Of a DNA stretch of 31,089 nt, positions 8,071 to 31,089 are shown in pieces; positions within the stretch are counted from its first letter, which is position 1, and each line of letters opens with the position of its first letter. Location of the stretch: positions 1 through 31,089 of IMG/VR virus record IMGVR_UViG_3300025128_000200. One strand, written 5' to 3'. Both the position numbers and the translations under genes were made by a program. The notes below the pieces were generated by a model that was not told the origin of the DNA, searched no databases, and worked only from the letters and a program-made list of their open reading frames with translations. The DNA is from a virus.

Positions 8071-8697
8071 TTATTCGTCGTCTGCGCCTGTGTATTGGCC
8101 GGCGGCGATTGATTCGGCCAACGTCAGAGGTGTGTCGAGCGGGTGGTCGCCTTGGCGCGGGTAGCGATTGTGTTGGATGAGTTCTTCGGTCTGGTTAACG
8201 GCCAACACCATGCGCGCCCACTCCACCATGTCGGGGTGCCTCAGACCTAGAATAGCGCGGTTAAAAAGCTCATCCGCGTAGAGTTTTGTCATTGTGTACC
8301 CGTCGCCACATTTTTGGAGGAGTCCAAGTTCGACGCCCATGGCGATGCAGCGGCGGACCGTTTCGCGTTTGGCTACGTCTTCGCATTCAACAGCAAATCG
8401 CGACATTGTGGCTGACCGATGTTCGATCAATACATCCTGCACTCGCCGAGCAATGAACCGATTTGTCACTGTAGCGGAGTGCCACTTTTCGATAGTGGGC
8501 GAGTCGCCGGCGATGCGATCCCATACCAGTGCGCAGCGCGTGCCAGCCGACATCAGGTATCGCCGTTGCGACCACAAAAAAGTGTGCGTCGATGGCGTTA
8601 GCTCTAAACCGCGCTTGCGGTAAAATTCGCCCCTCCTTTTGAAAGCATTGGCGATGTATTTGATGTGTTCTTTCAGATTCTTGTACTGGATCATCAT
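8071..8697 (-). CDS. Unknown protein co-transcribed with the integrase
   Basis: 208 residues. The first ATG overlaps the integrase stop (TTATGATGATC), so the two are translationally coupled; the second ATG, one codon later, is equally possible. It is basic in the first 100 residues. The central part (RETVRRCIAMGVELGLLQKC, then a GDGYTM wing-like turn) looks like a winged-helix DNA-binding fold. No catalytic motif is visible. Coupling with the integrase suggests a role in integration or its control, but that is inference. Confidence 0.6.
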   Translation of the reverse strand: MMIQYKNLKEHIKYIANAFKRRGEFYRKRGLELTPSTHTFLWSQRRYLMSAGTRCALVWDRIAGDSPTIEKWHSATVTNRFIARRVQDVLIEHRSATMSRFAVECEDVAKRETVRRCIAMGVELGLLQKCGDGYTMTKLYADELFNRAILGLRHPDMVEWARMVLAVNQTEELIQHNRYPRQGDHPLDTPLTLAESIAAGQYTGADDE

Positions 8698-9863
8698 AAC
8701 GTCTCCCCCGTTCCAAACGCATTACCCAGCTTCTCGGCGATCTCTTTCTCCATACGAGAATCTTGGAACCACCGACCATAGAATTCAGCCGTAAAGCTAA
8801 TATTCCGATGCCCCATTAGCTCGGTAATGACAGCCTCGTTGAGGTCGGTCTTAAATATTAAGACACTCGCGTAGAAGTGACGCAAATCATGCCAGTTGCA
8901 GCGTTCCACTTGCGCGGCCTTGCAAGCCTTGTGTAATCCGCGCTTGGCCCAGTTTGCATGTTCGGCGATGTTCCCTGTGCGCGTCGGAAAGACCAAGCCG
9001 CGCCCGCGCTGTTCCAGCGGCTGCCGCAATTTCCATTCGCGCAGCATATTCAAAACCGACGGCTCCAAGGTCACACGCCGCTGCCCCGCAATTGTCTTTG
9101 TGTCTCCGATCCGGCGCGTCTTCGCTTTCCGCGCCTCGACGACGCTGACAACCCCATTTTCCAGATCGACATTTTCCCACCGCAGCGCAACCTGCTCGCC
9201 TGCCCGCAGCCCGGTATAGGCGGCGAACATGATTTGCTTTTTATATTGCTGGGGCGCGGCGGCGATGATCGCCTGCATTTCCATAGGCGAGATGCGGCGT
9301 AAATTGCGCGCCCGCTTTTCGTGCTTCACGGAAATTTTGACGTGTTCCGATGGGTCTCGTTCCAGCCACTTCATTTTTACGCAATAGCGTAGAAAACGGC
9401 GGATATTTATCAGGCCCGCCTTGGCGGTCGTCAGCGATACCGTTTTTCCAGTGCGATTGTTTTTCCGACCTTTCAAAAGCGGTAGCAAATCGTCCTCAAA
9501 AATCTCGACCGTCAGGTCGGTGGTCCGTCGCGACCCGAGACGCTTTCCCCTCCAAATCAAATCGCAAAAATGGCGCGCGACAGTGCGCTCAATGTCCGAC
9601 AACTGCATCTCGCCAATGGTGCTGCCGTCGATATCCTCCTTGAGTCGTCGCCGCTGCCGGTCCATCCAAACGTCAACCGCATCATCGATGCGAGGCGCGG
9701 TCGCCGGGTCAACAAACCGGGCCGACCGCATCAGCGAGCGCTTGGTCTCAAACTCCCTTTCTGCATCTTCTTTTGTGCCGTTAAAAAGCAGGACTTTCCT
9801 CGCGCCGTTAACGAGGCCATAATCCAAGCGATACTTTCCTGGCTTGACTTCCTTGATGGGCAT
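8694..9863 (-). CDS. int: Tyrosine recombinase integrase
   Basis: 389 residues from the ATG at 9863. I preferred it to an upstream in-frame start because a strong GGAGG lies 10 bases before it and a probable operator lies in between. The N-terminal part holds an arm-type DNA-binding region followed by a SAM-like core-binding region (about residues 55-170). The catalytic domain has all expected residues: R220 in TGLRAGE, K256, H325-x-x-R328 in HDLRH, H352 in GHRN, and Y362 in FYGRW. It should catalyse site-specific integration and excision. The AT-rich region directly upstream is the likeliest attP location. Confidence 0.95.
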   Translation of the reverse strand: MPIKEVKPGKYRLDYGLVNGARKVLLFNGTKEDAEREFETKRSLMRSARFVDPATAPRIDDAVDVWMDRQRRRLKEDIDGSTIGEMQLSDIERTVARHFCDLIWRGKRLGSRRTTDLTVEIFEDDLLPLLKGRKNNRTGKTVSLTTAKAGLINIRRFLRYCVKMKWLERDPSEHVKISVKHEKRARNLRRISPMEMQAIIAAAPQQYKKQIMFAAYTGLRAGEQVALRWENVDLENGVVSVVEARKAKTRRIGDTKTIAGQRRVTLEPSVLNMLREWKLRQPLEQRGRGLVFPTRTGNIAEHANWAKRGLHKACKAAQVERCNWHDLRHFYASVLIFKTDLNEAVITELMGHRNISFTAEFYGRWFQDSRMEKEIAEKLGNAFGTGETL

Positions 9864-9878
9864 GACTCTCTCTCCTCC

Positions 9879-9893
9879 GTAACTGATCGTTAC
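9879..9893. promoter_or_regulatory. Operator-like dyad upstream of the integrase
   Basis: Perfect inverted repeat GTAAC-TGATC-GTTAC, 15 bp, directly upstream of the integrase Shine-Dalgarno sequence. An AT-rich element (TACTAT or TATATA on the minus strand, near 9895-9904) is the likely -10, so bound protein would block the start of transcription. The same GTAAC-N5-GTTAC dyad occurs at 11863-11877 and 20840-20854. Confidence 0.7.
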
Positions 9894-9989
9894 ATATATA
9901 GTACACATTACGTCAAAAGTTATGCAAAAAAATTACAAATCTAGTTAATCCTGTAATTATTTTGTAATCGCAACCTCCGACGCTCCGGG

Positions 9990-11197: not shown

Positions 11198-11803
11198 TCA
11201 GATGGCACGCACCGCCTGTATATAGTGGACAGCGCGAACATCCTGCGACGGCAGTGTGATTTCTTCGTCTGGGTTGTGCTGATGCAGCGTCAGCGTGTCG
11301 CCAGTGCGGCGCACATATTGTTTGGCAATTGCCAGCGTATCGCTGCCGCTCTCATATTGCACAACCACATAATCACCGCGCCGAGGCGGGCGGTCTGGGT
11401 TGACGATTAGCAACTCGCCAGCGAGGAATCGCGGCTCCATCGATTCCCCGTGCATCATAATAGCGTAGACGCCATCGCCATCGGCAAGGCCAGCAATATC
11501 AAGGCGATCAATCGGGTCTTGCCCGAAATTGACAACGCCGTCGCCGCCCTCTGCCTTGCCATGCACGGGGATCGTTTTCCCCGGCTGCACGACGGCCTGC
11601 GGTATGTCGCTGCCGATGCCGTCTACATAGTCGCGCGTCACGTTAAAGCGATCCGCGATGCGCTGGGACATTTCGGGCGGCGGGTTTGTTTCACCTCTAT
11701 CCCAACGGCGGAAGGTGTGGCCGGCAACGCCTAGCTGTCGAGCCAGTGCGGCTGCTGTCAATCCGGCGTCTGTTCTCAATTTTTGTACGCGATTTTTGGT
11801 CAT
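11198..11803 (-). CDS. CI-like phage repressor: HTH plus S24 (LexA-type) self-cleaving domain
   Basis: 201 residues. An N-terminal HTH_3-type domain covers about residues 4-58 (AALARQLGVAGHTFRRWDRG). A linker with a possible cleavage segment (HGKAEGGDG, residues 81-89) leads into an S24 peptidase domain with Ser121 in HGESMEP and Lys161 in TLAIAKQYV as catalytic dyad. It should maintain lysogeny and be inactivated by RecA-stimulated self-cleavage after DNA damage. It is transcribed away from a cro-like gene. No Shine-Dalgarno sequence precedes the ATG, and a -10-like TATACA lies only 9 bases upstream, which suggests a leaderless mRNA. Confidence 0.93.
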   Translation of the reverse strand: MTKNRVQKLRTDAGLTAAALARQLGVAGHTFRRWDRGETNPPPEMSQRIADRFNVTRDYVDGIGSDIPQAVVQPGKTIPVHGKAEGGDGVVNFGQDPIDRLDIAGLADGDGVYAIMMHGESMEPRFLAGELLIVNPDRPPRRGDYVVVQYESGSDTLAIAKQYVRRTGDTLTLHQHNPDEEITLPSQDVRAVHYIQAVRAI

Positions 11804-13373: not shown

Positions 13374-13877
13374 TTGCCGCGATTAATAAAAATTCCGATC
13401 ACGTTAGCGGAAGCAAACAAGTTTGTGGCAAGGGTCCATCGCCACCACAAACCTGTCGTCGGGCACAAATTTTCCATCGGCGCAACCTACGACAACAAAA
13501 TTGTTGGCGTAGTAATAGTGGGCAGGCCGGTATCGCGGCACCGTGACGACGGTGAAACCCTTGAGGTTACAAGACTCTGCACCGACGGCACCAGAAACGC
13601 CTGCTCATTTCTATACGGTGCGGCTGCACGGGCAACTTTCGCGCTCGGATACACGCGCGTTGGTACTTACATTTTAGCGACTGAAACAGGCGCAAGTTTA
13701 CGCGCCGCCGGGTGGCGTCTTATTGGACAAACTCCCGGAAAGTCATGGTCTTCACCATCACGACCGCGCGTTGACACTCATCCGCTAGAGCCTCGATTTC
13801 TTTTTGAATTTAGCGCTACCCGGCACCGCGCTCAAGAAACTGTGCCGAAAAAAAATGGAGAAAAAGTATGCGTTTAG
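13374..13877 (+). CDS. XF1762-like phage protein (GNAT-fold related)
   Basis: 167 residues with a TTG start directly after the previous stop. The sequence follows the conserved phage/prophage XF1762 family: PITLAEANKFV, HRHHKPVVGHKFSIGA, VVIVGRPVSR, LEVTRLCTDGTRNACSFLYG, ETGASLRAAGWR, SWSSPSRPRVDTHP. The family has an acyltransferase-like layout but no established function, and it usually lies among DNA-replication genes. The C-terminal 30 residues are basic and variable. The end overlaps the next gene by 10 bases. Confidence 0.75.
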   Translation: MPRLIKIPITLAEANKFVARVHRHHKPVVGHKFSIGATYDNKIVGVVIVGRPVSRHRDDGETLEVTRLCTDGTRNACSFLYGAAARATFALGYTRVGTYILATETGASLRAAGWRLIGQTPGKSWSSPSRPRVDTHPLEPRFLFEFSATRHRAQETVPKKNGEKVCV

Positions 13878-26148: not shown

Positions 26149-26345
26149 GCGACCTCCCCACCCGCCGCCATCAAATAAGCGAAACAGTCGGGCCGTTTAT
26201 CGTCAGCGTCGGCTTCGATCCGCGCGACGGGAAACCGTGCGAGGTTTTTATAACCAAGCGCGCAAAACCCGGCACCGACCTCGACAGGCATCTTTACGAT
26301 TTAGGCGTTGCTGCCTCGAAACTCATGCAGGGCGAACATGGCTAA
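26145..26345 (+). CDS. TSCPD-like small protein
   Basis: 66 residues with a TTG start overlapping the previous stop (TTGA) and GGAGG 7-8 bases upstream. The pattern GPFIVSVGFDPRDGKPCEVF ... GTDLDRHLYDLGVAASKLMQ resembles the small TSCPD domain found at the end of B12-dependent ribonucleotide reductases and as free-standing phage proteins next to portal genes. The function of the free form is not established. It overlaps the portal start by 8 bases. Confidence 0.55.
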   Translation: MSDLPTRRHQISETVGPFIVSVGFDPRDGKPCEVFITKRAKPGTDLDRHLYDLGVAASKLMQGEHG

Positions 26346-28392
26346 AAAAGACGATATTGAATTCCATGGAATCGTCCGCAATGAAATCGAATCTGCGGTC
26401 AACTACCACGACACGGAGTTGTCGTCAGACCGCATCGAGACGATGGATTATTATCTGGGCGAGCCGTTCGGCAATGAACTAGATGGCCGCTCTGCGGTCG
26501 TCAGCAGCGACGTTGCCGATACGATTGAGGCGATGCTGCCCAGCCTGATGAAGATTTTCACGGCATCGGGCGATTTTGTGCGTTTCGCGCCGCGCGGGCC
26601 GGAAGATGTTGAGGCTGCTGACCAGGCAACTGACTATGTCAATTTCATCCTCAACAGCGACAATAATGGCTTCGTAATTCTTCACAATTTCTTGAAGGAC
26701 GCGCTGCTATTCAAATATGGCGTTGTAAAAAGCTACTACGACGAAACGGAGACTGTTACAGAAGACAGTTATATTGGCCTCACCGAAGACGAACTAACGG
26801 CATTACTTGCCGACCCTGATATCGAAGTGGTCGAGCAGGAGATGGAGTCGATGGGCGAGGATCAGGTTTTGCCCGACGGCACCGTCCTCCCGGCACCGAT
26901 GACTTTTGACGTGCGCGTGAAGAAAACGGAACGCGACGGTCGCGTCTGCGTCGAGAACATTCCGCCAGAGGAATTCCTGTTTAATCGCCGCGCTAAGTCG
27001 ATGGACGACTGCCGCTTCGCGGCGCATCGGACACGGCTGCCAGCAAGCGATCTCATTGCGATGGGCTACGACCGCGAGTTGGTTGAAAGCAACGCCGGAT
27101 TTAACGAGGTTGACGACGAGCGGCAAGAGCGTTTCGAGGATCTAGAAAGCGGCCAGGAAGACAGCACGCTCGATCCCAGCCAGCAGAGCGTACTTTATAC
27201 AGAGGCGTATATTAAGACCGACTACGACGATGACGGCATCGCGGAACTGCGCCGCGTCTGCTGCATCGGTGCAGGGTATGAGATCGTCAAGAACGAACCG
27301 TATGGCATGATGCCGTTCAGCGTCGTGTCGCCGATCTTGATGCCGCACCGCATGGTAGGCCGCAGCATTGCGGAGTTGGTCAAGGACTTGCAGGAAATCA
27401 AGTCGTCGCTGCTTCGCCAGCAACTTGATAATGTTTATTTGACCAACAACGCGCGCATCGCAGCGGTCGAAGGTCAGGTGAATATTGACGACCTTATGAG
27501 CAACCGCCCCGGCGGCGTTGTCAGAATGCGCGCCCCCGGAATGGTGCAGCCGATTACGCCGCCGGCCATCAACCAGATGGCTTTTCCGTTGCTGCAATAT
27601 ATCGATCAGGTTAAGGAAAACCGCACGGGTATGACCAAGGCAAGCCAGGGGCTTGACCCTGACAGTTTGCAATCGTCTACCCGCGCAGCGGTTGCGGCCA
27701 CGATTAGCGCAAGTCAGCAAAAGATCGAAATGATCGCGCGCGTCTTCGCCGAAACCGGCGTGAAGCATTTGATGCAATCAATTTTGCGGCTGGTGCAGAC
27801 CTATCAGCAGGGGCCGCGCATCGTGCGGCTGCGGAATAAATTCGTTCCGATGGACCCGCAGGAGTGGGATACCGAATTTGATACGATCATCGAGGTCGGC
27901 ATCGGCACCGGGGATACGGAAAAGCGCATCGCGGTCCTTACGCAAGTGGCGCAGAAGCAGGAAGAAATTCTCACAAAGCTGGGCGTCGCCAATCCGTTAT
28001 GCACGCTGCAGCAATACCGCGACACGTTGGCGCGGATTATTGAATTGTCTGGCTTCAAGGACAGCAGCGCTTTCTTGCTCGACCCCGACAACCTGCCGCC
28101 AGAATTGCAACAGAAAATCCAGGCGCGCCATTCGGAGCAGAAATCGCCGCAGGATGAAGTCATCGAACTGGAACGTGCGAAAGCGCAGGCCGAGATCGAA
28201 AGCGACCGCATGAAGATGCAGGCCGAGATTGAAATGAAGCGTGAAAAGGCTGCTGCCGAGATGCAGTTGAAGCGCGAAGAAATGCAAATGAAGATGGAAT
28301 TGCGCGCCCAAGAGATGCAGATGGAAGCGCAGCTTCGCGGCATCGAAGCATCAACCGGCATCGACATTAGCGCCAACCTGCCGCGCGCCTGA
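26338..28392 (+). CDS. Portal protein (P22/SU10-like)
   Basis: 684 residues from the ATG at 26338. The N-terminal region has DTELSSDRIETMDYYLGEPF and GRSAVVSSDVADTIEAMLPS, typical of large P22/SU10-type portals. The central region (FVILHNFLKDALLFKYGVVK, MPHRMVGRSIAELVKDLQEI) and the stem segment with NRTGMTKASQGLDPDSLQ also match. The last 110 residues are a long charged coiled coil (repeats such as MQLKREEMQMKMEL) that could form the barrel extending into the head. It forms the dodecameric DNA channel. The order portal, small protein, scaffold, capsid is the standard module. Confidence 0.92.
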   Translation: MAKKDDIEFHGIVRNEIESAVNYHDTELSSDRIETMDYYLGEPFGNELDGRSAVVSSDVADTIEAMLPSLMKIFTASGDFVRFAPRGPEDVEAADQATDYVNFILNSDNNGFVILHNFLKDALLFKYGVVKSYYDETETVTEDSYIGLTEDELTALLADPDIEVVEQEMESMGEDQVLPDGTVLPAPMTFDVRVKKTERDGRVCVENIPPEEFLFNRRAKSMDDCRFAAHRTRLPASDLIAMGYDRELVESNAGFNEVDDERQERFEDLESGQEDSTLDPSQQSVLYTEAYIKTDYDDDGIAELRRVCCIGAGYEIVKNEPYGMMPFSVVSPILMPHRMVGRSIAELVKDLQEIKSSLLRQQLDNVYLTNNARIAAVEGQVNIDDLMSNRPGGVVRMRAPGMVQPITPPAINQMAFPLLQYIDQVKENRTGMTKASQGLDPDSLQSSTRAAVAATISASQQKIEMIARVFAETGVKHLMQSILRLVQTYQQGPRIVRLRNKFVPMDPQEWDTEFDTIIEVGIGTGDTEKRIAVLTQVAQKQEEILTKLGVANPLCTLQQYRDTLARIIELSGFKDSSAFLLDPDNLPPELQQKIQARHSEQKSPQDEVIELERAKAQAEIESDRMKMQAEIEMKREKAAAEMQLKREEMQMKMELRAQEMQMEAQLRGIEASTGIDISANLPRA

Positions 28393-28697: not shown

Positions 28698-29708
28698 ATG
28701 AGCGAAGCAACCGCGCAAGCGACTCCGCTGTCTATTGCGTCTGCAGTAGACTCCCTTCTTGCCGCCGAAGCCCCCGTTGAGGAAACGCCGCCGCAGCCGG
28801 AAGTTGTTGCCGAAACCGAAGAAGAGGTTGAGGTCGAAGCCGCCGAGGAAGCCGAGGAAGCCGAGGACATCTTGCAGGCCGATGAGGCCGAAGAAGATGA
28901 AACCGAGGAAGCCGAGGAAGCCGAGGAGGTAGTCGAAGCCGTCGAACCACAAACATATCGTGTTCGCGTCGGCGACGATGAGGTCGATCTGACGCTCGAC
29001 GAGTTGCAGTCGGGCTATATGCGTCAGAGCGACTATACGCGCAAAACGCAGCAAGTCGCCGAAGGCCGAAAAAAGGCCGCAGCGGAACTGCAGGCGCTTG
29101 AGGCGCAGCGTCATAGCTACGCCGAACAACTCGCAGCCGTCGAGGCCGCGCTTCAGCAATCAGAGCCGACCCAAGAATTTTGGGAAAATCTGAATGCGGA
29201 AGACCCGCTTGAATACATTCGTCAGCGTGACGCCTATCGCGACCGAAGGGAAGCGATGGCCCAAGTGCAGGCGGAAAAGGAGCGGGTACATCAGGAGCAA
29301 ATGGCAACCCTACAAGCGCAGGCGCAGGAGAGTTTGCAGCAGGAGGGCCAACGACTTTTGCAAGCCATCCCCGAATGGCGTGACCCGGATGTGGCGCAGA
29401 AAGAGAAGACTGCGGTCTACTCGTATGCGCAACGGCATCTCGGTTACACCGCAGACGAATTACAGGCTGCGGGAGATCATCGTGCAATCAATGCGCTTCG
29501 CAAGGCGTATCTGTACGACGAGCTTATGAAGCAAAAGCCCGCCGCAACGAAAAAGGCGAAAAAGGCTCCAAAGATGGCAAAAGCCGGGCAACCTACGACG
29601 AAACGCGAGACTTCAGCGAAAAGGAAGCGGCAACAGCTTCAGAGCATCGGCAAGCAGAAAGGCTCTAAGGCCATGGATGCTGCCGTGGATTATCTTCTCA
29701 ACACATAG
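28698..29708 (+). CDS. Scaffolding protein
   Basis: 336 residues, GGAG 8 bases before the ATG. The N-terminal 80 residues are extremely acidic with repeated EEAEEAE units encoded by a short GCCGAGGAA repeat. Then comes YRVRVGDDEVDLTLDELQSG and YMRQSDYTRKTQQVAEGRK, a segment characteristic of phage scaffold-type proteins. A long coiled coil follows (about 130-230), and the C-terminus is Lys-rich, as expected for capsid binding. It should organise the capsid protein into proheads and then leave or be degraded. It is directly upstream of the major capsid gene. Confidence 0.85.
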   Translation: MSEATAQATPLSIASAVDSLLAAEAPVEETPPQPEVVAETEEEVEVEAAEEAEEAEDILQADEAEEDETEEAEEAEEVVEAVEPQTYRVRVGDDEVDLTLDELQSGYMRQSDYTRKTQQVAEGRKKAAAELQALEAQRHSYAEQLAAVEAALQQSEPTQEFWENLNAEDPLEYIRQRDAYRDRREAMAQVQAEKERVHQEQMATLQAQAQESLQQEGQRLLQAIPEWRDPDVAQKEKTAVYSYAQRHLGYTADELQAAGDHRAINALRKAYLYDELMKQKPAATKKAKKAPKMAKAGQPTTKRETSAKRKRQQLQSIGKQKGSKAMDAAVDYLLNT

Positions 29709-29717
29709 GAGGCCATA

Positions 29718-29860
29718 ATGGCTACTTATACGACCGCGAACGCGGTGGGCGAGCGGGAAGATTTGAGCAATGTGATCGCGAGAATCGACCCCGACGAAAC
29801 GCCTGTTTTCAGCAATGCCAAGAAGGAAGTCACCAAGGGCGTCTTCCATGAGTGGCAGGT
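29718..29860 (+). CDS. Major capsid protein (SU10-like, DUF5309 type), exon 1
   Basis: Starts at ATG 29718, with AGGAGG 7 bases upstream. The 47 codons plus two bases encode TTANAVGEREDLSNVIARID, then PDETPVFS and FHEWQ, the typical N-terminus of SU10/DUF5309 capsid proteins. The frame would stop at once (GTT TAA) if not spliced. Group I intron structure places the splice site after T29860, in codon 48. Joined to exons 2 and 3 it gives an open frame of at least 287 residues running out of the window. Confidence 0.88.
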
Positions 29861-30120
29861 TTAATCTTGAGCCTCGTTCGCCAGTAATGGCGAATTGCAA
29901 CTGGGTGAATTGCTGGGAAACCCTAACGGTAACGCCGAGGGCAATCAGCAGCGAAGCCGAATTCGTTCGGAACGTTCAGAGACTATCCGCAAGGAGTACA
30001 CCGTAAGCGCGGTGGAAGCGCCCAGCCCCTCGTATGAGGGTGAAGATATAGTCCGATCTTACATTAGAGTGTGAGCTGTTTCGTACAGGGCCTAACGTAG
30101 CGAATTAGGTCGAACATTTG
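29861..30120 (+). ncRNA. Group I intron 1 in the capsid gene (260 nt, no ORF)
   Basis: P1: exon AGGU pairs with GCCU (29871-29874), with the required U-G pair at the splice site, extended by UUA/UGA. P10: exon 2 start UCAA pairs with UUGA (29867-29870). P3 CUGGG (29901-29905)/CCCAG (30021-30025). P4 UGCUG (29911-29915)/CAGCA (29946-29950). P5 CCCU/AGGG. P6 CCGAA/UUCGG. P7 GACUA (29981-29985)/UAGUC (30049-30053). P8 CCCUC/GAGGG. The intron ends in G30120. Two small hairpins between P7 and P3 (UCC-GCAA-GGA and CACCG/CGGUG) suggest subgroup IA. There is no endonuclease gene, so it is a self-splicing mini-intron. Confidence 0.93.
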
Positions 30121-30703
30121 TCAAGAACTGACGGCAGCTTCTGACAGCAATGCTCAGAATGAGGGAGCTGACTTCAGCTATACGAACCCCACCGCAACGA
30201 GCCGCGTCGGAAATTATCATCAAATCAGTGTCCAAGCCGCATCGGTTAGCGGCACTTTGGACGCCGTTGACAAGGCTGGCCGCGATAAAGAAACGGCCTA
30301 TGTCAAATTGCTCAAAGGCATCGAGCAACGACGTGACATCGACAAGGCTCTGTTTAAAAACGAAGCCCGGTCGAGCAGCGACCCCCGCAAGGCGGGCAAG
30401 CTGTTAAGCTACATCACGAACATGGAACTGATTTCCGCGTCAACGACACCCACCGGTGATGGTTCAAATGTGAGTGACATGGCGGGAACCAACGCAGCAT
30501 TGACGTTGGCCAAGATCGACAGCGCCATGAAGAAGGCATATGACGATGGCGGCTCGCCCGACATGCTGGTTGTTTCGCCGGCAAACAAGGTTGCGTTCTC
30601 CGACCTGTCTAGCGGCAGTGCGGTGACGAACCAGTTGCACATGACTGCCGGGAATCCACAAGAGGCAGTAATCATCGGCAGCGTGTCGATGTATCTGACG
30701 GAT
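30121..30703 (+). CDS. Major capsid protein, exon 2
   Basis: 583 bases continue the frame from codon 48 (GT|T, then QELTAASDSNAQNEGADFSY). Family landmarks in order are NPTATSRVGNYHQISVQAAS, GTLDAVDKAGRDKETAYVKL, EQRRDIDKALFKNEA, KAGKLLSYITN and, near the end, PQEAVIIGSVSMYLTD. These fit the HK97-fold SU10-like capsid proteins. The exon ends after D242 at T30703. Without splicing of intron 2 the protein would end three codons later (QLN, stop). It contributes most of the shell-forming domain. Confidence 0.9.
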
Positions 30704-30953
30704 CAACTCAACTAGCCGAGGTCCGTCTAAAACCGCGTGAACTGCTGGAAGCCTAAACCGAAAGGCAGGGTAATCAGCAACCAAGCGTCTTGGAAACAAG
30801 GCGAAGGCCCAGAGACTAGGCGATGGAGTCCTAACGGGTAACGCCGAGGATGGTAAACGCCCACGAGCGCGCGGCACCAATTTGGTGATGATATAGTCCG
30901 CTACCCAATGAAAGTTGGGAGTGAGGATAAAGAGCCTCACAAAGAACAAAAGG
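30704..30953 (+). ncRNA. Group I intron 2 in the capsid gene (250 nt, no ORF)
   Basis: P1: exon GACGGAU pairs fully with GUCCGUC (30721-30727), including the splice-site U-G pair. P10: exon 3 start UUCGGC pairs with GCCGAG (30715-30720). P3 CCGCG (30733-30737)/CGCGG (30870-30874). P4 UGCUG (30743-30747)/CAGCA (30775-30779). P5 GCCU/AGGC. P7 GACUA (30814-30818)/UAGUC (30894-30898). P8 CACCA/UGGUG. The intron ends in G30953. Extra sequence between P7 and P3 again suggests subgroup IA. No endonuclease gene is present. Confidence 0.93.
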
Positions 30954-31089
30954 TTCGGCACCTTGAACGTGGTCATCGACAGGCAGGCGGCTAACACCGA
31001 GATTTTCCTGCTTGACGCCGACCATTACAGCATCGGCCATTTGCCGGGACGCCTGTTCTCGGCAAGCGACGTTGCCCCCGTGGGTGACG
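30954..31089 (+). CDS. Major capsid protein, exon 3 (3' truncated by the window edge)
   Basis: Splicing at 30703/30954 joins ...MYLTD to FGTLNVVIDRQAANTEIFLL, then DADHYSIGHLPGRLFSASDV, matching the DFGTLxVV segment expected in this capsid family. 45 codons and one base are visible before the window ends, so about the last 20-40 residues are missing. The match across the junction independently confirms the splice sites derived from P1 and P10. Confidence 0.9.

Follow-up and report, generated by a model that had tools for sequence, protein, structure and literature searches.

Two predicted ORF-less group I introns in the major capsid gene of a metagenomic phage and the patchy distribution of their relatives across a capsid lineage

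The stretch of DNA analyzed here (the window; 31,089 bases) is an IMG/VR virus record, a metagenome fragment whose right end cuts a capsid gene at codon 287; the window covers 287 of about 316 codons and the last 29 lie beyond the end of the record. The gene is encoded on the plus strand in three exons, of which exon 1 (29718–29860; codons 1–47 and 2 nt) was delimited by tblastn and spliced alignment to the intron-free allele L004 and others, and exon 2 (30121–30703; 583 nt) and exon 3 (30954–31089; codons 243–287, ending with the record) by spliced alignment to intron-free relatives. The exons are separated by two predicted group I introns on the same strand, both lacking an ORF, i.e., intron 1 (29861–30120; 260 nt) and intron 2 (30704–30953; 250 nt). 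Upstream, also on the plus strand, the context is given by an SU10-type portal protein (26308–28392; Pfam PF23899, E 9e-213) and a probable head scaffolding protein (28698–29708), which was without match in a Pfam search and is assigned by its position and by synteny with the scaffolding gene of phage C72C1. The capsid family was identified with L004, the protein of which is 97% identical to the spliced window protein and which matches the profile PF17236 SU10_MCP (SU10 major capsid protein) over its length (E 7.3e-70). PF17236 is the former DUF5309, which agrees with an annotation found in the search and with the DUF5309-type capsid protein named in the original prediction. Elsewhere in the window a Mom-like DNA modification protein is encoded (13374–13877; phrog_1384, E 2e-39), and the minus strand carries an integrase and a phage repressor-like protein at 8694–9908 and 11198–11803, owing to which the phage is probably temperate.

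Joining the three exons yields a reading frame that contains …HEWQVQELTAAS… and …YLTDFGTLNVV…, in which the junction of intron 2 reads MYLTD|FGTLNVV. The spliced protein shows 95–97% identity to the products of the uninterrupted genes L003 and L004, and the spliced frame aligns gap-free to uninterrupted capsid genes including L003–L007, L009, L012, and L063. Comparison of the spliced exons with L004 resulted in a dN of 0.033 and a dS of 0.29, values indicating that the split capsid gene is under purifying selection.

Intron 2 is matched by the Rfam family RF00028 with 65.1 bits (E 1.5e-14), above the gathering score. Splice sites were scored exhaustively, requiring a U before the intron and a G at the intron end, and this returned one best solution per intron, 29861–30120 and 30704–30953. 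The best-scoring pair of intron 2, which is preceded by U30703 and has G30953 as its last base, also restores the exact capsid frame. P1 is predicted to form between the last seven bases of exon 2 (30697–30703; GACGGAU) and the internal guide (30721–30727; GUCCGUC) with seven pairs, including the terminal U30703-G30721, and P10 between a second guide (30715–30720; GCCGAG) and the start of exon 3 (30954–30959; UUCGGC) with six pairs, one of them G-U. The original prediction had placed a 250-nt group I intron at 30704–30953, with a P1 of seven pairs including U-G, a P10 of six and a joined protein reading MYLTD-FGTLNVV; the coordinates turned out to be exact, both helices were recovered as described, and the protein junction is the one at which intron-free capsid genes align without a gap. 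The remaining core comprises P3 (30733–30739/30868–30874; three pairs changed on both sides), the P4-P5-P6-P6a domain (30743–30807; RF00028 match and covariation) with P4 at 30743–30748/30774–30779 and P6a at 30786–30792/30797–30803, the guanosine-binding helix P7 (30814–30818/30894–30898; invariant in 6/6 introns of the site), and the P8 hairpin (30875–30887) and P9 and P9.1 hairpins (30904–30940), which were assigned by covariation. Subgroup IA2, the usual type in phages, would be marked by extra P7.1/P7.2 stems between P7 and P3; in intron 2 the 5′ strand of P7 is separated from the 3′ strand of P3 by 49 nt, which are predicted to fold into stems. The longest stop-free frame within the 250 nt encodes 83 amino acids, and a homing endonuclease ORF was looked for and not found there.

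The structure was examined further in a set of six sequences, comprising intron 2 of the window and its counterparts at this codon in five further distinct alleles. In this set 99.7% of the cells are paired, a value favorable to the structure because the window sequence itself served to draw the helices, and pairing falls to 36–38% if the partners are slid by one base. Free of this bias are the two-sided pair changes, of which 16 were observed compared to a mean of 6.5 in shuffled data, with 0/500 shuffles reaching 16. The most telling pair is the outermost one of P1 (30697–30727), which is present as five pair types in the six sequences (G-C, U-A, A-U, C-G, and U-G): on the exon side it is the third base of a Leu codon (CTG, CTT, CTA, CTC), on the intron side it belongs to the guide, and the two change together. 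Taken with the conserved P7, these data support the assignment of intron 2 as a group I intron with an intact and covarying core from P3 to P9.

The support for intron 1 is as good as that for intron 2, and it is also matched by RF00028, with 83.3 bits (E 5e-20) and above the gathering score. Its predicted P1 (AGGU, 29857–29860, with GCCU, 29871–29874) has only four contiguous pairs, beside a P10 of six (29865–29870/30121–30126). The two introns of the window have only short core motifs in common. For intron 1 the nearest relative, with 98.5% identity, is found at intron 1's own codon in L043, and the nearest relatives of intron 2, 76–79% identical, are found at intron 2's own codon in other phages, which shows that the two belong to different, independent intron lineages. 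Each guide pairs poorly with the exons of the other intron, and joining of exon 1 to exon 3 would shift the frame and lead to a stop after VSAP (…WQVSAP*). These results accord with the earlier description of a second, independent intron, of introns of 260 and 250 nt lying 583 bases apart (splice-site scoring yields an exon 2 of exactly this length), of guides specific for their own exons, and of a frameshift upon deletion of the 583 bases.

To place the gene in its lineage, 150 distinct capsid alleles were collected from four viral-contig scans, one genome scan, and phage C72C1. Exon fragments were added to the full-length capsid as queries, since full-length queries favor uninterrupted genes, and introns were mapped by ungapped chaining with explicit splice-site scoring, as gapped tblastn extends into the introns and failed to recover L185 and part of the first introns; a gap in L213 was left out of the intron counts. 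Since alleles entered the sample through the capsid gene, and in part through exon fragments, percentages derived from it are not population frequencies. Interrupted are 34/150 alleles, with 57 introns of 208–285 nt at ten codons (22.67, 47.67, 58.33, 76.67, 79.33, 101, 107.33, 114.67, 235.67, and 242) and at most three per gene. All 43 distinct introns contain an early in-frame stop, and the spliced frame is open in 34/34 interrupted alleles. The insertion codons lie in unusually conserved stretches of the gene (0.906 versus a gene mean of 0.811, p 0.0014). The 135 essentially full-length alleles comprise 103 without an intron, 14 with one, 14 with two, and 4 with three; two or more are present in 18 alleles versus 7.6 expected from independent sites, a comparison confounded by shared ancestry. 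Two introns in one virion gene had been called unusual in the original prediction, which is partly right, but within the lineage two or three introns in the capsid gene are common (18/32 interrupted near-full-length alleles). Introns outside the capsid gene were not found in 50 full records (approximately 0.83 Mb of virus sequence and one 2.6-Mb genome bin), in which the RF00028 matches of each record equal its mapped capsid introns. Three mini group I introns in one capsid gene are observed in L195, L198, L199, and L196 (codons 23, 101, and 242, or 77, 101, and 115), and an internal exon of 41 nt lies between two group I introns in L176 (636–676) and in L196 (between codons 101 and 115). An intron-bearing phage capsid copy, L159 (PBOZ01000018.1), is found in a bin titled Rickettsiales (Tara Red Sea), reflecting either the host or a binning contamination.

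The distribution of the introns on the capsid tree requires a minimum of 8 state changes for the codon-23 site, 8 for the 236 site, 6 for the 108 site, and 5 for the 242 site, the last being occupied in 8 alleles. In 94/103 pairs of introns at the same site the introns are more alike than the 300 nt of flanking exon, e.g., 97.1% versus 74.3% for the codon-108 pair of L219 and L233, with the reservation that flanking exons were compared ungapped, which makes some exon values too low and exaggerates the difference near codon 236 owing to an upstream indel. Intron 1 of the window and its counterpart in L043 are 98.5% identical, compared to 82–83% in the adjoining 60-nt exon stretches. Since the similarity between introns often far exceeds that between the exons around them, the capsid introns have very probably moved horizontally between related phages. 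Searches for HNH, HNH_3, GIY-YIG, and LAGLIDADG_2 yielded no nuclease gene in the records searched, each of these families being matched in control genomes; the search for Endonuclease_7, without a match anywhere including the controls, is uninformative. Elsewhere in phages, relatives of these introns lie within or close to genes for DNA polymerase, primase/helicase, and nucleotide reductase, and some adjoin HNH genes. The capsid introns therefore resemble ORF-less offshoots of a phage intron family that is widespread. The most similar introns at different codons, in L010 at codon 59 and in L043 at codon 80, are 82% identical, and the last five 5′ exon bases read by their guides are GAACU in both, which is what reverse splicing would lead one to expect and represents a single case of possible transposition by this route. 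Across sites, intron similarity is weakly related to shared 5′ exon bases (rho 0.29, permutation p 0.04), largely due to one pair. The reverse-splicing route has been described, with direct proof lacking (PMC3984707). A tentative and rather doubtful extension of these findings is that the SU10-type capsid gene of this lineage acts as a hotspot for introns (ten codons, with a maximum of three mini-introns in one gene and none seen in the rest of the genomes) and that its introns spread without an identifiable endonuclease, perhaps to new codons through reverse splicing, for which the capsid mRNA would be an abundant target.

We are highly confident that intron 2 is a complete ORF-less group I intron which would be spliced together with intron 1 from the capsid pre-mRNA, and that such introns are gained, lost, and passed horizontally at fixed codons. 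The sequence comparisons support the anatomy, the splice sites, the covariation, and the horizontal transfer; from them we infer the splicing reaction and the way in which the introns move. Intron 2 is proposed to fold in the pre-mRNA and to bind the last seven bases of exon 2 via P1 and the first six bases of exon 3 via P10. The standard two-step, guanosine-initiated reaction would then cut after U30703 and subsequently join U30703 to U30954, releasing the 250 nt, and 583 nt upstream the ribozyme of another intron lineage, intron 1, would do likewise. The capsid protein can be made only if both introns splice, as each holds an early in-frame stop. Such introns are gained and lost repeatedly in the capsid gene, and related phages acquire them from one another by horizontal transfer, at codons that stay fixed.

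The inserts might instead be group I remnants that no longer splice, leaving a pseudogene or a gene that makes fragments. A group I structure alone is no proof of catalysis, the evidence presented here is drawn from sequences only, and some predicted phage introns failed to splice in the assay of PMC11878797. However, every core helix is intact and covarying, the joined exons form an open frame that is under purifying selection, the P1 guide changes in step with the exon, and the same introns recur in independent samples, and we consider loss of splicing very improbable. The recurrence argues strongly against an assembly artefact or a chimera of mixed phage populations, for which the origin of the window from a metagenome record could speak: a 98.5% identical intron 1 occupies the same codon in L043, codon-242 introns are shared by several contigs that derive from different samples, and an intron also interrupts this gene in phage C72C1, the record of which is complete and circular, leaving a practically negligible probability. 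A further explanation views the introns as a regulatory or splice-variant device, serving exon skipping or a timed capsid switch, rather than as near-neutral mobile elements. For Twort orf142 and SIOphi, skipping of an exon that lies between two group I introns has been documented, as reported in PMC11878797, and the introns are limited to one late gene in the 50 records. Yet skipping of exon 2 would result in the frameshift and the stop after VSAP, cross-pairing of the guides is poor, and presence is patchy, with 103/135 alleles devoid of introns, which makes such a device unlikely, albeit somewhat less so than the two preceding explanations.

With splicing and horizontal passage of ORF-less introns as the preferred interpretation, the lineage represents a group of small phages in which introns occur only in the major capsid gene, in more than one fifth of the alleles examined, often as two or three and without a resident nuclease. 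With numerous versions of the ten sites, some occupied and some empty, it offers a compact natural system in which the spread of ORF-less introns, and the cost of several ribozymes to a highly expressed gene, can be tested. In viral metagenomes, annotation may also miss or split such capsid genes. Phage genes with more than one intron and interrupted capsid genes are already known, separately; what is of interest here is the concentration in the capsid gene, and a literature search of open-licence papers returned no report of this capsid hotspot. In Staphylococcus phage Twort, orf142 was described to contain several group I introns and to undergo exon skipping (Landthaler and Shub 1999, cited in PMC11878797). 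As far as can be judged from this citation, Twort likewise has several group I introns in one structural gene, that of the tail tube, but it belongs to another phage group, whereas here the capsid gene is affected, at ten codons across the lineage and by introns that are all ORF-less and 208–285 nt long. The Bastillevirinae resemble the present lineage in having two or three group I introns per gene, a small exon between introns, and a patchy distribution, but there the introns have a mean length of 802 nt, frequently encode nucleases, and reside in DNA polymerase, terminase, and nucleotide-metabolism genes rather than only in the capsid gene; the location of phage introns mostly in these gene classes is stressed by the authors (PMC11878797). 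The major capsid gene of mycobacteriophage LittleE is also interrupted, with splicing proven by RT-PCR and N-terminal sequencing, but by only one intron, which measures 819 bp and contains a homing-nuclease ORF, the type being given as "most likely a group I" (PMC3706429), where a capsid intron of Tuc2009 is cited as well. Collaborative homing shares with our case ORF-less group I introns that spread between phages, but it uses a free-standing nuclease (PMC3984707), of which the records contain no candidate of the tested families. Phage C72C1 (L083; OQ984150) has a member of the same capsid family and likewise a group I intron without ORF, of 251 nt, but at codon 108. In its GenBank record the split capsid gene (L083 3357–4558) is annotated as two "major head proteins" with the intron unrecognized, and three small antisense ORFs are annotated in and around the intron.
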